Assembly: GCF_000316665.1 (NCBI RefSeq)
Contig: NC_019678.1
Location: 1,054,001-1,118,000 of the forward strand
Source of the DNA: Rivularia sp. PCC 7116
GTDB taxonomy: Bacteria; Cyanobacteriota; Cyanobacteriia; Cyanobacteriales; Nostocaceae
DNA length: 64,000 nt
Direction: 5' to 3'
In this document: positions 3,166 through 7,600 of the stretch, piece by piece
How the letters are laid out: each line of letters begins with the position of its first letter
Numbering within the stretch: position 1 is the first letter of the stretch
The notes under the pieces: model-generated
Database searches by the model: none
Seen by the model: the letters and a program-made list of their open reading frames with translations, nothing else
What the model was told of the DNA's origin: nothing
Made by a program: the position numbers and the translations under genes

Positions 3166-4566
3166 ATGTACAATCAAAGACAGCATTTCAAGATTGCGAA
3201 AAAGTCTATTCAAAAAGATAGTAGAACTTCCCAAGATGTTTGTGAAAAAATAAATATATTTACAAGCCAGTTATTAATAAAAACTAAGAAAAATTTATTA
3301 CGTTCTAGCTCAATTTTCTGTGCGTTTCCTTTAACTATTAGTTTATTAATTGCAGGTTGTGATTCAGCACCCAAAGAAACCGCTCAAGCCACATCTAAGC
3401 GTCGTGGTGGTGCAACTGCCGTAGATACAGCTATTGCTAAAAAAGCACAATTAGACAAGCAAATATCTTATATCGGAACCACCCTGCCATACCGCAAAAT
3501 ATCGGTGCGATCGCAAATAGAAGGGCAGTTATTAGCGTTGAATGTAGACGTAGGGGTAATGGTTTCTAAAGGTTATATTATCGGATTAATTGATGATTCC
3601 TTGCTCAATAGTTCGTTAAATCAAGCAGAAGCGGAACTTGCAGCCCTAAATTCAGAAGTAGCCAGAGCAAATACTCAAGTTAGTAACGCTTTGACAGAAG
3701 TAGAAAGAGCGCGATTGCAATTGCAGCAAGCTCAATCGGATGCTCAAAGACAGCAAAAGTTGCTTTCTGAAGGCGCAATTGCTCAACAAATAGCCGAACA
3801 AAGCCGTACCGAAGCTCAAACAGCAGCAAAAGCGCTGCGTTTAGCAGAAAAAAGAGTGCAAACAGAGCGTCAAGCAGTCGCTGCTGCCAAAGGAAGAGTA
3901 GTCGCACAGCAAGCGGTAGTGGCTCAAGCAAAAGAACGTAAAAGTTACGCTAAATTAACATCTCCAATTGCAGGTGTAGTTTTAGAAAAAATTATTGAAC
4001 CGGGTAACTTAGTTCAACCCGGTAATGAAATTATTAAGATAGGCGATTTTAGTAAGGTAAAAATAGAAATTCAAGTTTCAGAGTTAGAGTTAGGAAAACT
4101 TGAAGTTGGACAATCCGTAGAAGTTTTATTAGATGCTTTTCCCAACCAAGAATATATAGGTACTTTAAAACGCATTTCTCCAGCAGCAAATTCAACGGCT
4201 CGTTTAATACCTGTAGAAGTAGTAATTCCCAATGTTGAGAATAAAATTGGTAGTGGTTTATTAGCAAGAGCCAACTTTCAGAATACAGCTAATCAGCAAA
4301 TTGTCGTACCATTCAGAGCAATTCAAACAGAAGATAAATTAGGTTCAAATCTTCAAGGTAAAATATTTACTGTTGTAGAAGATGGTAATAAGAATAAAGT
4401 AAAAGTCAGAAGCGTCACATTAGGGAAAAAAGCAGACGGGAAAGTAGAAATTTTATCGGGATTGCAGCCGGGAGAATCCTATGTAGTCAGAAGTAGCAAA
4501 CCTTTAAAAGACGGTGAAAATGTACGTTTGTCCATTCTTTCGGAAACAGTGAACAGTGAGCAGTGA
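3166..4566 (+). CDS. RND efflux periplasmic adaptor (HlyD/MFP family lipoprotein)
   Basis: This is the membrane-fusion subunit that would link the permease encoded next (4674-7907) to an outer-membrane channel. The 466-residue protein has a basic N-terminal region, a hydrophobic segment ending in a lipobox (LLIAGC, cysteine near residue 65), a biotinyl-lipoyl-like half motif (VRSQIEGQLLALNVDVGVMV), a long alpha-helical hairpin rich in Ala/Gln/Glu (about residues 150-265), the second lipoyl half (SPIAGVVLEKIIEPGNLV) and beta-barrel/membrane-proximal domains. The N-terminal extension before the lipobox is unusually long, but AGGAAATA precedes this ATG. The last codons (SETVNSEQ, stop) are written in a CAGTGAACAGTGAGCAG-type intergenic repeat, so the C terminus appears repeat-derived. 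Confidence 0.9.
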   Translation: MYNQRQHFKIAKKSIQKDSRTSQDVCEKINIFTSQLLIKTKKNLLRSSSIFCAFPLTISLLIAGCDSAPKETAQATSKRRGGATAVDTAIAKKAQLDKQISYIGTTLPYRKISVRSQIEGQLLALNVDVGVMVSKGYIIGLIDDSLLNSSLNQAEAELAALNSEVARANTQVSNALTEVERARLQLQQAQSDAQRQQKLLSEGAIAQQIAEQSRTEAQTAAKALRLAEKRVQTERQAVAAAKGRVVAQQAVVAQAKERKSYAKLTSPIAGVVLEKIIEPGNLVQPGNEIIKIGDFSKVKIEIQVSELELGKLEVGQSVEVLLDAFPNQEYIGTLKRISPAANSTARLIPVEVVIPNVENKIGSGLLARANFQNTANQQIVVPFRAIQTEDKLGSNLQGKIFTVVEDGNKNKVKVRSVTLGKKADGKVEILSGLQPGESYVVRSSKPLKDGENVRLSILSETVNSEQ

Positions 4567-4668
4567 GCAGTCAGCAGTTATAAGTAGCGAGTAGGGATGA
4601 GTAGTAAGTAGTAGATTAATAGCTCCTCTCCCCCTCTTCCCCCTCTCCCCCCTCTTCCCCCTCTCCAA
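4546..4668. repeat. CAGTGA-type and pyrimidine-rich short tandem repeats
   Basis: A run of CAGTGA/CAGTCA-type heptamers covers the adaptor stop codon, followed by GTAG-rich repeats and a CTCTTCCCC-type pyrimidine tract up to the permease start. Similar CAGTGAACAGT repeats occur at 37692-37772 and, inverted, at 42958-43035. Confidence 0.75.
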
Positions 4669-4673
4669 TTTCT

Positions 4674-7600
4674 ATGTCTATCAGCACAATTTCCATCCGC
4701 AGACACATCGGCACTCTCATGTTAACCTTGGCAGTGATTGTTTTAGGTGTGTTTTTTATTGTTAGATTGCCAGTAGATTTACTACCATCAATTACCTATC
4801 CACGTATTGGCGTGCGGGTAGAAATCCCTGGAGTTTCTCCAGAAGTAGCGATTGACGAAGTTACTAAACCCTTAGAATCAGCTTTTGCTGCCACCGAAGG
4901 AGTCATACAGGTTTATACCCAAACTCGTGAAGGCAGAATTAGCTTAAATTTATATTTTCAACCGGGGGGAAATATCGACCAAGCCCTTAACGATACCACT
5001 GCGGCATTTAATCGGGCTAGAGGTAGACTACCAGATACTATTGAATCGCCGCGCATATTTAAGTTCGATCCTTCTCAATCACCAGTTTATGAATTCGCTT
5101 TAACTTCACCTTCAAAGCAGGGAGTTGATTTAAGAGTATTTGCAGAAGAAGAATTAGGAAGAGAGTTAGGGGTAGTAGCAGGAGTTGCGGGGGTTGATGT
5201 TTCCGGTGGAGTTGAGGAAGAAATAAGAATAAACGTCGATTTAAATAGGTTGCAGGCTTTGGGTATAGGTTTGAGTGACGTACTCGATGAATTAAGAAAT
5301 CGCAATCAGGATATTTCTGGGGGAAGAATTTTAGGAGAGAATTCCGAAGCTTTGACTCGTACAGTTGGACGTTTTCAAAATGCTGAAGAAATTAGAAATC
5401 TGGCTTTTGGGGTAAATTCTCCTAACGGCGATATTTCTCAAACTATTTACCTGCGAAACTTTGCCAGAGTTATTGATGATACGGAGCGACAAAGAATTTC
5501 CGTTTTGTTAAACAAGCAGCCAGCAGTCAAAATCAGCATTCAGAAACAGCCCGATGCTAATACTATAAGTGTTGTTGATGGGGTTAAAAAACAAATTGCA
5601 GAACTTAAAAAATCCGGAATTATCCCCGAAGCAACTCTTTTGACAACAACTTTAGATGAATCGCAATTTATCCGTAATTCCATAAATAACGTGACTGCAT
5701 CGGGATTAATTGGTACTTTACTAGCTGCGATCGCGGTATTACTATTTTTAGGCTCGCTCAGACAAACTTTTATTATCGTAATTGCAATTCCTTTGGCAAC
5801 TTTAGCTGCAATTATTTTAATGGGGGTATTTGGTTTATCCTTAAATGTTTTTAGTTTGGGTGGTTTGGCATTAGGAGTTGGTATCGTCGTAGATAACTCC
5901 ATCGTCATGCTGGAGAATATTGCCAAAGGCATGAATTTTGGGAATGGGGAATTGGGGATGGGGCATGGGGAAACAAGGATACAAGGAGATAATTTAGAAT
6001 CCTTAACTCCTAACTCCTCACTATTAACTCCTAACTATTTAACTCCAATGCCCGATGCCCCATCTCCAATGCCCAATTTTTTAAAGCAAGCTGAAGAAAG
6101 CAGTCGGGAAGTTGAATCTGCTTTAATTGCTTCTACCAGTACTAACTTAGTTGTAGTATTACCGTTTTTACTAGTTGGTGGATTGATTTCGCTGCTATTT
6201 AACGAATTAATTCTTACTATCAGCTTTGCGGTAGCGGCTTCTATATTAATTGCGGTGACTGTGGTGCCGATGATGACTTCCAGGATGCTGGCATGGCGTT
6301 ATTCTAGTAAGGTTAATCAACTTTGGTTTATCAAAGAATTTAATCATCGTTTTGAGGCAGCCACAAGAGCATACGGCAATTTTTTGCGTAATATAGTCCA
6401 GTTTCGGTTGCTGACTATTGTTGTAACGATTCTGTTTCTCAGCGGTAGTTGTTTGTGGATGATACCGCAAATACCCAAAGAGATTTTACCCCGGATTAAT
6501 ACCGGCAGGGCTATTTTATTCGCTTCTTTTCCTCCCGGTACAACTTTAGAAACTAATCAGAAAGTAATGGTTGCTGTTGACGATATTCTTCTCAAACAGC
6601 CCGAAACTGAATATGTATTTTCAACTGTCGGTGGTTTTATATTCAGCAGCACTACTATAGAAAATCCTTTAAGAAGTTCTAGCAATATTACTTTAAAATC
6701 GGGTACGGATATAGAAGCTTATGTAGAGAAAGTAAATCAAGAATTTAACAAGCTGAATTTAGCCGGAATTCGTCTGCGTCTTTTCCCCGGTAGAGTGCGG
6801 GGTTTAATTCTAAATAATTCACCAGTGCGTGGTGCCGATATCGATATTATTCTGCAAGGGGAAAACCAAGAAATTTTAGAAAAAGCTGGCGAGCAGGTAC
6901 TTGAAGCTTTAGACGAACAAGTAAAATCTGCGAGATTTCGTCCCGATGCCGATAAACCGCAACCGGAAATTCAAATTCGTCCCGATTGGCTCAGAGTCGC
7001 AGCGCTACGTTTAACAACTGAAGATATTGGAGATACCATCGCTACGGCGATTCAAGGAAGTATCCCCACTCAATTGCAGCGAGGTAATCGTTTAGTAGAT
7101 GTACGAGTGCAGTTGGATGAAGCATCCGTGCAAACAACTTCACAACTGGAAAGACTGCCTTTATTTGTTAATGATAATTATCAAGTGCGTTTGAGTGATG
7201 TGGCAAGTATTGTTAAAGATAAGGCACCGGGAGAAATTCAACGCATAAATCAGCGTCAAGTATTTATTATTGCCGGTAATTTGAGTGAAGGAGCAAATTT
7301 AAGTCAAGCCTTAGCTCAAGTTAATAACGTTATCGAAAATTTGGAATTACCTTCAGGGGTGCGCGTTTTACCTAGTTATAGCGCTCAATCCAATCAGCAA
7401 TTACAAAATTCCCTGTGGTTGTTGGGGGGATTAGCCGTGTTTTTAGTCTTTGTAGTTATGGCAGTACAATATAATTCCCTTGTTGACCCCTTGGTTATTA
7501 TGTTTACCATGCCTCTCGCTTTAGCTGGGGGTATTTTCGGTCTTTATATTACTCAAACAGCTATCGGTGCAACGGTGATAGTTGGTGCAGTTTTACTCGT

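Follow-up and report, generated by a model that had tools for sequence, protein, structure and literature searches.

The permease locus

The window analysed here is a 64,000-nucleotide stretch of the genome of Rivularia sp. PCC 7116 (8.73 Mb, three contigs), and positions are given relative to its first base. It contains an RND permease gene together with its adaptor gene and several repeat arrays, one of which lies inside the permease reading frame (Table 1). A profile search matched permease residues 4-1070 to Pfam ACR_tran (PF00873) with 967 bits against a cut-off of 28, and the presence of this domain over the whole chain identifies the protein as an RND permease of the AcrB/AcrD/AcrF kind. 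Comparison with solved RND pumps using Foldseek returned a best E of 2.3e-58. Assignment to the NCBIfam multidrug efflux subfamily RND_permease_2 was not obtained, with 646.6 bits against a cut-off of 1250. The adaptor was recognized by TIGR01730 RND_mfp (178.9 bits, cut-off 94.9), and an AGTGAGC-type heptad array at 4542-4581 forms the last codons and the stop codon of this gene. The closest permease relatives that were fetched came from Rivularia sp. MS3 (93%, best segment) and Richelia sp. UBA3308 (86%).

Table 1. Genes and repeat features of the permease locus (window positions).
Feature	Position	Strand	Evidence
RND periplasmic adaptor gene, directly 5' of the permease	3166..4566	+	ORF list; NCBIfam TIGR01730
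CCCCCTCT-type repeat cluster, just 5' of the permease start codon	4629..4665	+	repeat scan
RND (AcrB-type) permease gene, intact, 1077 aa	4674..7907	+	ORF list, Pfam ACR_tran, Foldseek
In-frame repeat insert, residues about 421-468, TM4-TM5 loop	5936..6078	+	sequence, inverted repeat, frame, 12-mer, structure and alignment tests
G-rich GGGNATN heptad block, 5' arm of the hairpin	5940..5970	+	sequence; inverted repeat; paired in RNA fold
Two ACAAGGA units	5973..5989	+	sequence
Interrupted TAACTCC heptad block	6004..6046	+	sequence; direct repeat; whole-insert frame test
C-rich AATGCCC/GATGCCC heptad block, 3' arm of the hairpin	6047..6078	+	sequence; inverted repeat
GGTAATT heptad array, just 3' of the permease stop codon	7918..7958	+	lag-7 scan

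The insert is made of repeats dispersed between genes

An earlier note on this DNA had proposed that a repeat of intergenic type sits in frame within the RND permease, and this was confirmed. The insert is built of heptanucleotide repeats, a composite like those scattered through the intergenic DNA of the host genome. Its lag-7 self-match was 0.56 (z 8.0 against 500 mononucleotide shuffles), which gives it the tandem 7-nt unit of STRR sequences, and its two 28-nt arms (5943-5970 and 6051-6078) show 86% complementarity. GACAAGG units between a G-rich and a C-rich block, as in the insert, were also found at loci L093 and L116. Coverage of the insert by 12-mers frequent outside ORFs was 38.5%, a value equalled by none of 7388 coding windows, which kept a distance of 150 nt or more from ORF ends and excluded the neighbourhood of the insert. 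Chance resemblance to the repeats is ruled out by this coding-window control. The same coverage was reached by 92 of 2128 same-size intergenic windows, which come from the DNA that supplied the 12-mer set. A lookup in the host genome with the insert returned at least 46 matches including the insert itself (at least 45 others), a lower bound because scoring covered 40 of the 502 first-look candidates. Repeat clusters were surveyed over 2.064 Mb (100 stretches of 20 kb plus the window) using ORFs and not annotated genes. This yielded 536 clusters, non-heptad repeats included, of which 484 lay mostly outside ORFs of at least 100 codons, 38 wholly within ORFs and 12 in ORF interiors. The repeats of the insert thus also share with STRR sequences a dispersed, mainly intergenic distribution in the same genome.

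Repeat composites around TAACTCC showed strand polarity in the 100 sampled stretches of the host genome plus the window. Across 39 TAACTCC arrays, insert included, G-type heptads lay upstream 11 times and downstream once, and C-type heptads lay downstream 8 times and upstream once, for a total of 19 versus 2 (17 versus 2 without the insert, binomial p 0.0007). Both flanks occurred together in two of the 39, one being the insert. The block order of the insert is that of intergenic composite L003 and in part that of L007. In the same sample, 13 TAACAAC arrays between co-directional genes lay on the coding strand and one lay on the opposite strand, a bias singled out after six repeat families had been inspected.

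The reading frame is kept open across the insert

The coding frame runs through the insert without a stop codon, in agreement with the earlier note that the frame is preserved and stop-free. The other two sense frames have 3 and 4 stops, and the three antisense frames have 2, 6 and 1. Three consecutive TAACTCC units place a stop in every frame by arithmetic because 7 is no multiple of 3. The TAACTCC block of the insert is broken by interruptions, and the insert as a whole is open in the coding frame alone. Ten intergenic TAACTCC arrays (at least 2 TAACTCC units each, 28-109 nt) had one open frame in 30, and intergenic repeat clusters of at least 80 nt had 14 open frames in 132, open frames being less rare among repeats of other kinds. 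That the coding frame alone is open, when one in 30 frames of the intergenic arrays is, is a sign of selection for translation, clearest in the TAACTCC part, and the insert is predicted to be translated in vivo. About 48 residues (421-468) are encoded by repeats as had been suggested, although the net gain in loop length is 32 residues (65 versus 33 in the commonest class). Judged from the alignment, this net gain indicates either that an older loop was partly replaced or overwritten, or that a shorter loop was entered.

The insert lengthens a loop that is short in most orthologues

Loop lengths were measured from N415 to E481 in an alignment of 81 orthologues (80 fetched loci and the permease), since a regular expression missed 27 of 118 loci, seven of which (L002-L008) were non-RND. 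The loop was 23-34 residues in 72 of the 81, with 33 the commonest class and a total range of 23-119. Long loops were found here (65), in Rivularia MS3 (75) and in Richelia UBA3308 (69), in two Symploca (81 and 119) and in four other orthologues (42-58). The comparison with insert-free permeases that had been called for therefore shows the short loop to be the rule, and a loop of 65 residues here argues for insertion and not for an ancient loop, a reading excluded by the lengths in this alignment. The same loop sequence in many genera, named beforehand as the finding that would overturn the insertion, was not seen among the fetched orthologues, in which the loop is short, contains other repeats or is of different sequence. 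Internal insertions of at least 4 residues, scored relative to alignment columns occupied in 70% or more of the rows, occurred at just two places in the 81 proteins, the TM4-TM5 loop and after residue 251. This second variable site carries serine-rich runs or heptads, for example CAGTCAA in L051.

A homologue of the insert is present in Rivularia sp. MS3, which is an independent assembly. Amino acid identity between the two inserts was 71% over 42 aligned codons with 22 of 64 columns gapped, compared to 95.6% identity and 2 gapped codons in the rest of the permease. Changed codons were nonsynonymous:synonymous 12:5 in the insert and 45:165 elsewhere (Fisher p 5e-5), a contrast based on 17 changed insert codons and one genome pair. 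This comparison indicates that amino acid constraint is relaxed in the insert relative to the rest of the permease, the insert changing quickly as protein with its frame kept. The segment GDNLE.LTPNSSL was kept in both Rivularia genomes, which could reflect local constraint.

Structural comparison placed the insert in the same loop. Among the 60 solved RND chains listed, the best matching stretch stopped at query residue 420-431 or started at 472-478, and the top chain matched in two stretches, 5-426 and 475-1070. From AcrB topology we take the 426-475 gap to be the place of the TM4-TM5 cytoplasmic loop. AlphaFold2 modelled residues 421-466 as coil between helices 392-420 and 467-505. pLDDT was lowest in the chain at 421-460, with blocks from 421 of 29, 26, 27 and 33, followed by 39. 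The loop is probably disordered, although the model was modest overall (mean pLDDT 63.6, pTM 0.51) and low loop pLDDT in such a model is weak evidence of disorder.

A predicted hairpin differs between relatives

The earlier note had suggested that the two arms could form a hairpin in the mRNA. RNA folding of 5936-6085 gave -50.9 kcal/mol (z -4.63) and the 143-nt insert gave z -3.5, and as a prediction for this sequence the hairpin held. A hairpin maintained in the clade is not supported, since the corresponding loop RNA of the two nearest relatives folded weakly or not at all beyond expectation (Rivularia MS3, z -1.7; Richelia UBA3308, z 0.1) and so gave no sign of its upkeep. Elsewhere, the RNA of repeat-bearing loops folded well in G246 (z -4.1), G277 (-5.5), G174 (-4.9) and G211 (-6.0) and poorly in G204 (0.8) and G283 (-1.0), and the stable folds were unlike one another in shape and sequence. 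These predictions support the RNA structure being a by-product of palindromic repeats.

Different repeats occupy the same loop in other lineages

The TM4-TM5 loop carries repeats of other kinds in other cyanobacteria. The loop of Symploca SIO2C1 (G204, L116) contains a long ATTCCCA array (lag-7 z 22.9), that of Symploca SIO1C2 (G246, L093) contains GGGGACG, GACAAGG and TTCCCAA units (z 6.5), and that of G277 contains further heptads running to the contig end (z 11.6). The loop of G283 appeared repeat-built by eye with a lag-7 z of just 1.3. In these Symploca-like genomes repeat status was judged from heptads in the loop itself; almost all frames of the Symploca loops are open, so an open frame proves little for them. 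Unrelated palindromic repeats were found in the loops of G069, G092 and G174 (family f5, genus g70), whose own genomes contain no fewer than 57, 47 and 42 matches, the locus itself counted, and in G069 they form 42-nt tandem units. Richelia UBA3308 carries a different block with at least 51 own-genome matches including itself, all of them in its first 50 bases save the full-length self-match. Yet another repeat, with at least 45 own-genome matches including itself, occupies the loop of G211, where the gene looks broken. Long loops of UBA11153 (z 0.7) and R. intracellularis (z 0.8) showed no heptad signal, and the idea that all long loops are repeats was rejected. These two were excluded from the count of changes described below, and the long loops of L099 and L109 fall outside the heptad test.

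The repeat label, present on 12 of 101 rows, was placed on a quick tree made with no mixture model and with the two variable loops of the protein excluded. It needs five changes, and starred branches force three. Both the 12 rows and the five changes include G211, whose place in the tree is unsure, and G227, which is just a loop piece at a contig start; without them the evidence for recurrence comes from the Rivularia clade, the Symploca-like genomes and, within f5, genus g70. The three forced changes could be one gain and two losses, and separate gains are argued from the difference in repeat families and not from the tree alone. The sample was not a census, as 220 of 291 genomes were matched and the 24 closely examined were chosen by eye. 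In family f15, 15 of 20 genomes were matched and five had repeats (G204, G246, G277, G283 and G227), a count that leaves out some loops (G152, G179, G236, G256 and G297). Contigs end inside loop repeats in L183 (G227), L194 (G277) and L199 (G069), and draft assemblies may therefore under-report the insert.

Repeats are also found in frame inside other genes

Six of the 12 interior clusters were taken as lying within supported genes. Heptads were found in the permease, L203 and L240, C/T-rich units in L146 and L217, and a hairpin repeat in L215; clusters L124, L125, L141, L245 and L249 were doubtful and L259 lies outside the scan. L146 is a beta-ketoacyl-ACP synthase (616.7 bits, cut-off 455), L217 is UreD and L215 is a kinase, and in all three, as in L203 and L240, the interior repeat is in frame. 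L203 resembles an O-succinylbenzoate-CoA ligase, its best NCBIfam score of 617 bits being below the cut-off of 640, and it matched Pfam AMP-binding with 107 bits (cut-off 29.9). An RND paralogue in the host genome (L169:3013 onward; G000:C1:5610519-5613782) has repeats in a different loop, GGGAGCA units plus a hairpin repeat. They lie between Pfam positions 496 and 529, where 109 codons separate the matched stretches.

L240 had no family match and is presumably lipid-A-disaccharide-synthase-like. Relatives were found in 28 of the 31 genomes searched, its own counted. Inspected by eye, their loop contains, depending on the genome, ACCAATT, GGGGAAGA, GGGGAGCA or CCGTGTC/GGGACGC units or palindromes, and plain short loop sequence in other genomes. 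One loop, at L240:12796-12830 and in relatives L264-L293, thus has varied repeat units across cyanobacteria. On this comparison L240 appears to be a second gene of the host genome with the permease-loop pattern, and the permease loop would not be unique. The claim that such repeats can enter and persist in coding sequence is upheld by the insert-free orthologues, by the insert shared with MS3 and by these other in-frame cases.

Comparison with known repeat systems

The accessible parts of the published work describe several related systems. Rickettsia palindromic elements (RPEs) are repeats inserted in frame into unrelated conserved genes (PMC10969869). The insert resembles them as short, dispersed palindromic repeat DNA placed in frame in a conserved gene, its complementary arms and stable predicted fold making it a palindromic element. 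RPEs form families of about 150 bp with a conserved encoded peptide (PMC10969869), whereas the insert consists of heptad arrays with no fixed length or peptide, as the varying loop content and the gapped columns against MS3 show. Also unlike RPEs, one loop takes different repeats in different lineages. By analogy the insert would work like an RPE without being a member of the group.

In Nostoc sp. PCC 7120, GGGGA(T/C)T heptamers are 68% intergenic with an intragenic share above that of xanthomonads, and lpxB is named as a repeat-associated gene (PMC4692102). The insert is like the STRR sequences and heptamers of Nostoc and other cyanobacteria in being built of 7-nt tandem units that are dispersed and mostly intergenic (PMC4692102), and intragenic heptads as such are therefore already known. 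The accessible sections of that paper do not discuss reading frame, protein loops or repeat-free orthologues, the matters considered here. TAACTGA heptads in Beggiatoaceae and cyanobacteria are likewise heptad arrays and mostly intergenic, and in forward orientation they introduce stops into coding sequence, so that just some places would tolerate them (PMC4679880). The TAACTCC units of the insert differ in being kept open mid-gene by interruptions. REPINs and other small dispersed repeats, found in Nostoc punctiforme too, are short, palindromic and mobile-like (PMC3116915); the insert differs in being heptad arrays and not REP doublets. No title or abstract found in the open-licence literature describes repeats in an RND loop. 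Relative to these precedents, what appears new is recurrence, the same loop carrying different repeats across lineages.

Interpretation

We consider it probable that the insert is a tolerated, translated repeat passenger under selection for frame, and that the loop is a recurrent repeat sink. An STRR-type heptanucleotide composite would have entered the permease gene before this organism and Rivularia sp. MS3 diverged. Its block order matches the polarity seen over the 39 TAACTCC arrays, which suggests that the composite was copied in ready-made and did not grow in place. Translation of the insert would lengthen the cytoplasmic TM4-TM5 loop by a disordered segment, and the insert would persist, presumably neutrally, as this loop tolerates extra and fast-changing sequence, with selection purging versions that break the frame or bring in a stop codon. 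The loop would serve as a recurrent sink, receiving other repeats in other lineages.

The insert may instead have been co-opted, giving an mRNA hairpin or G-rich tract, or else the peptide loop, a role in regulating or modifying the pump. The strong predicted hairpin, the in vitro formation of G-quadruplexes by such G-rich heptads (PMC4692102) and the short segment kept between the two Rivularia genomes are consistent with this, and we retained co-option as a rival since several unrelated repeat-bearing loops (G246, G277, G174 and G211) also fold well. However, folding is weak in MS3, UBA3308, G204 and G283, the stable folds differ, and the insert has diverged to 71% amino acid identity with a third of its codon columns (22 of 64) gapped against MS3. 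Palindromic repeats fold well anywhere, so a stable fold would be expected without function, and we regard co-option as unlikely.

Two further readings concern the nature of the sequence itself. An old lineage-specific low-complexity loop that is repeat-like by composition alone would fit the natural variation in loop length, from 23 to 119 residues, and the long loops without heptad signal in UBA11153 and R. intracellularis. It is made very improbable by exact 12-mer sharing with intergenic repeats above that of all 7388 coding windows and by a block order like that of intergenic composites L003 and, in part, L007. A decaying permease pseudogene, or a repeat produced by assembly error, has a parallel in G211, where the repeat-bearing loop lies in a broken-looking gene with an in-frame TAA and a best ORF of just query 184-681. 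The permease here has 1077 open codons and, outside the insert, 165 synonymous versus 45 nonsynonymous changed codons, and the homologous insert in the independent MS3 assembly speaks against assembly error; we give this explanation hardly any credence.

The passenger and sink interpretation can be extended, tentatively and with some doubt, to the proposal that certain conserved cyanobacterial protein loops are recurrent sinks for the active repeat family of a lineage, so that intergenic repeats would be a standing source of new disordered protein, an older repeat perhaps attracting or templating the next. The permease is a clean natural example of non-coding repeat DNA that seems to have turned into protein with its frame kept, and some orthologues carry the repeat DNA and others lack it. 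The Rickettsia precedent thereby reaches cyanobacteria and arrays of heptanucleotides, and two unrelated proteins each have one loop rewritten by different repeats across lineages. Together these data open two questions to testing: at which sites proteins accept new sequence, and by what means heptad repeats spread.
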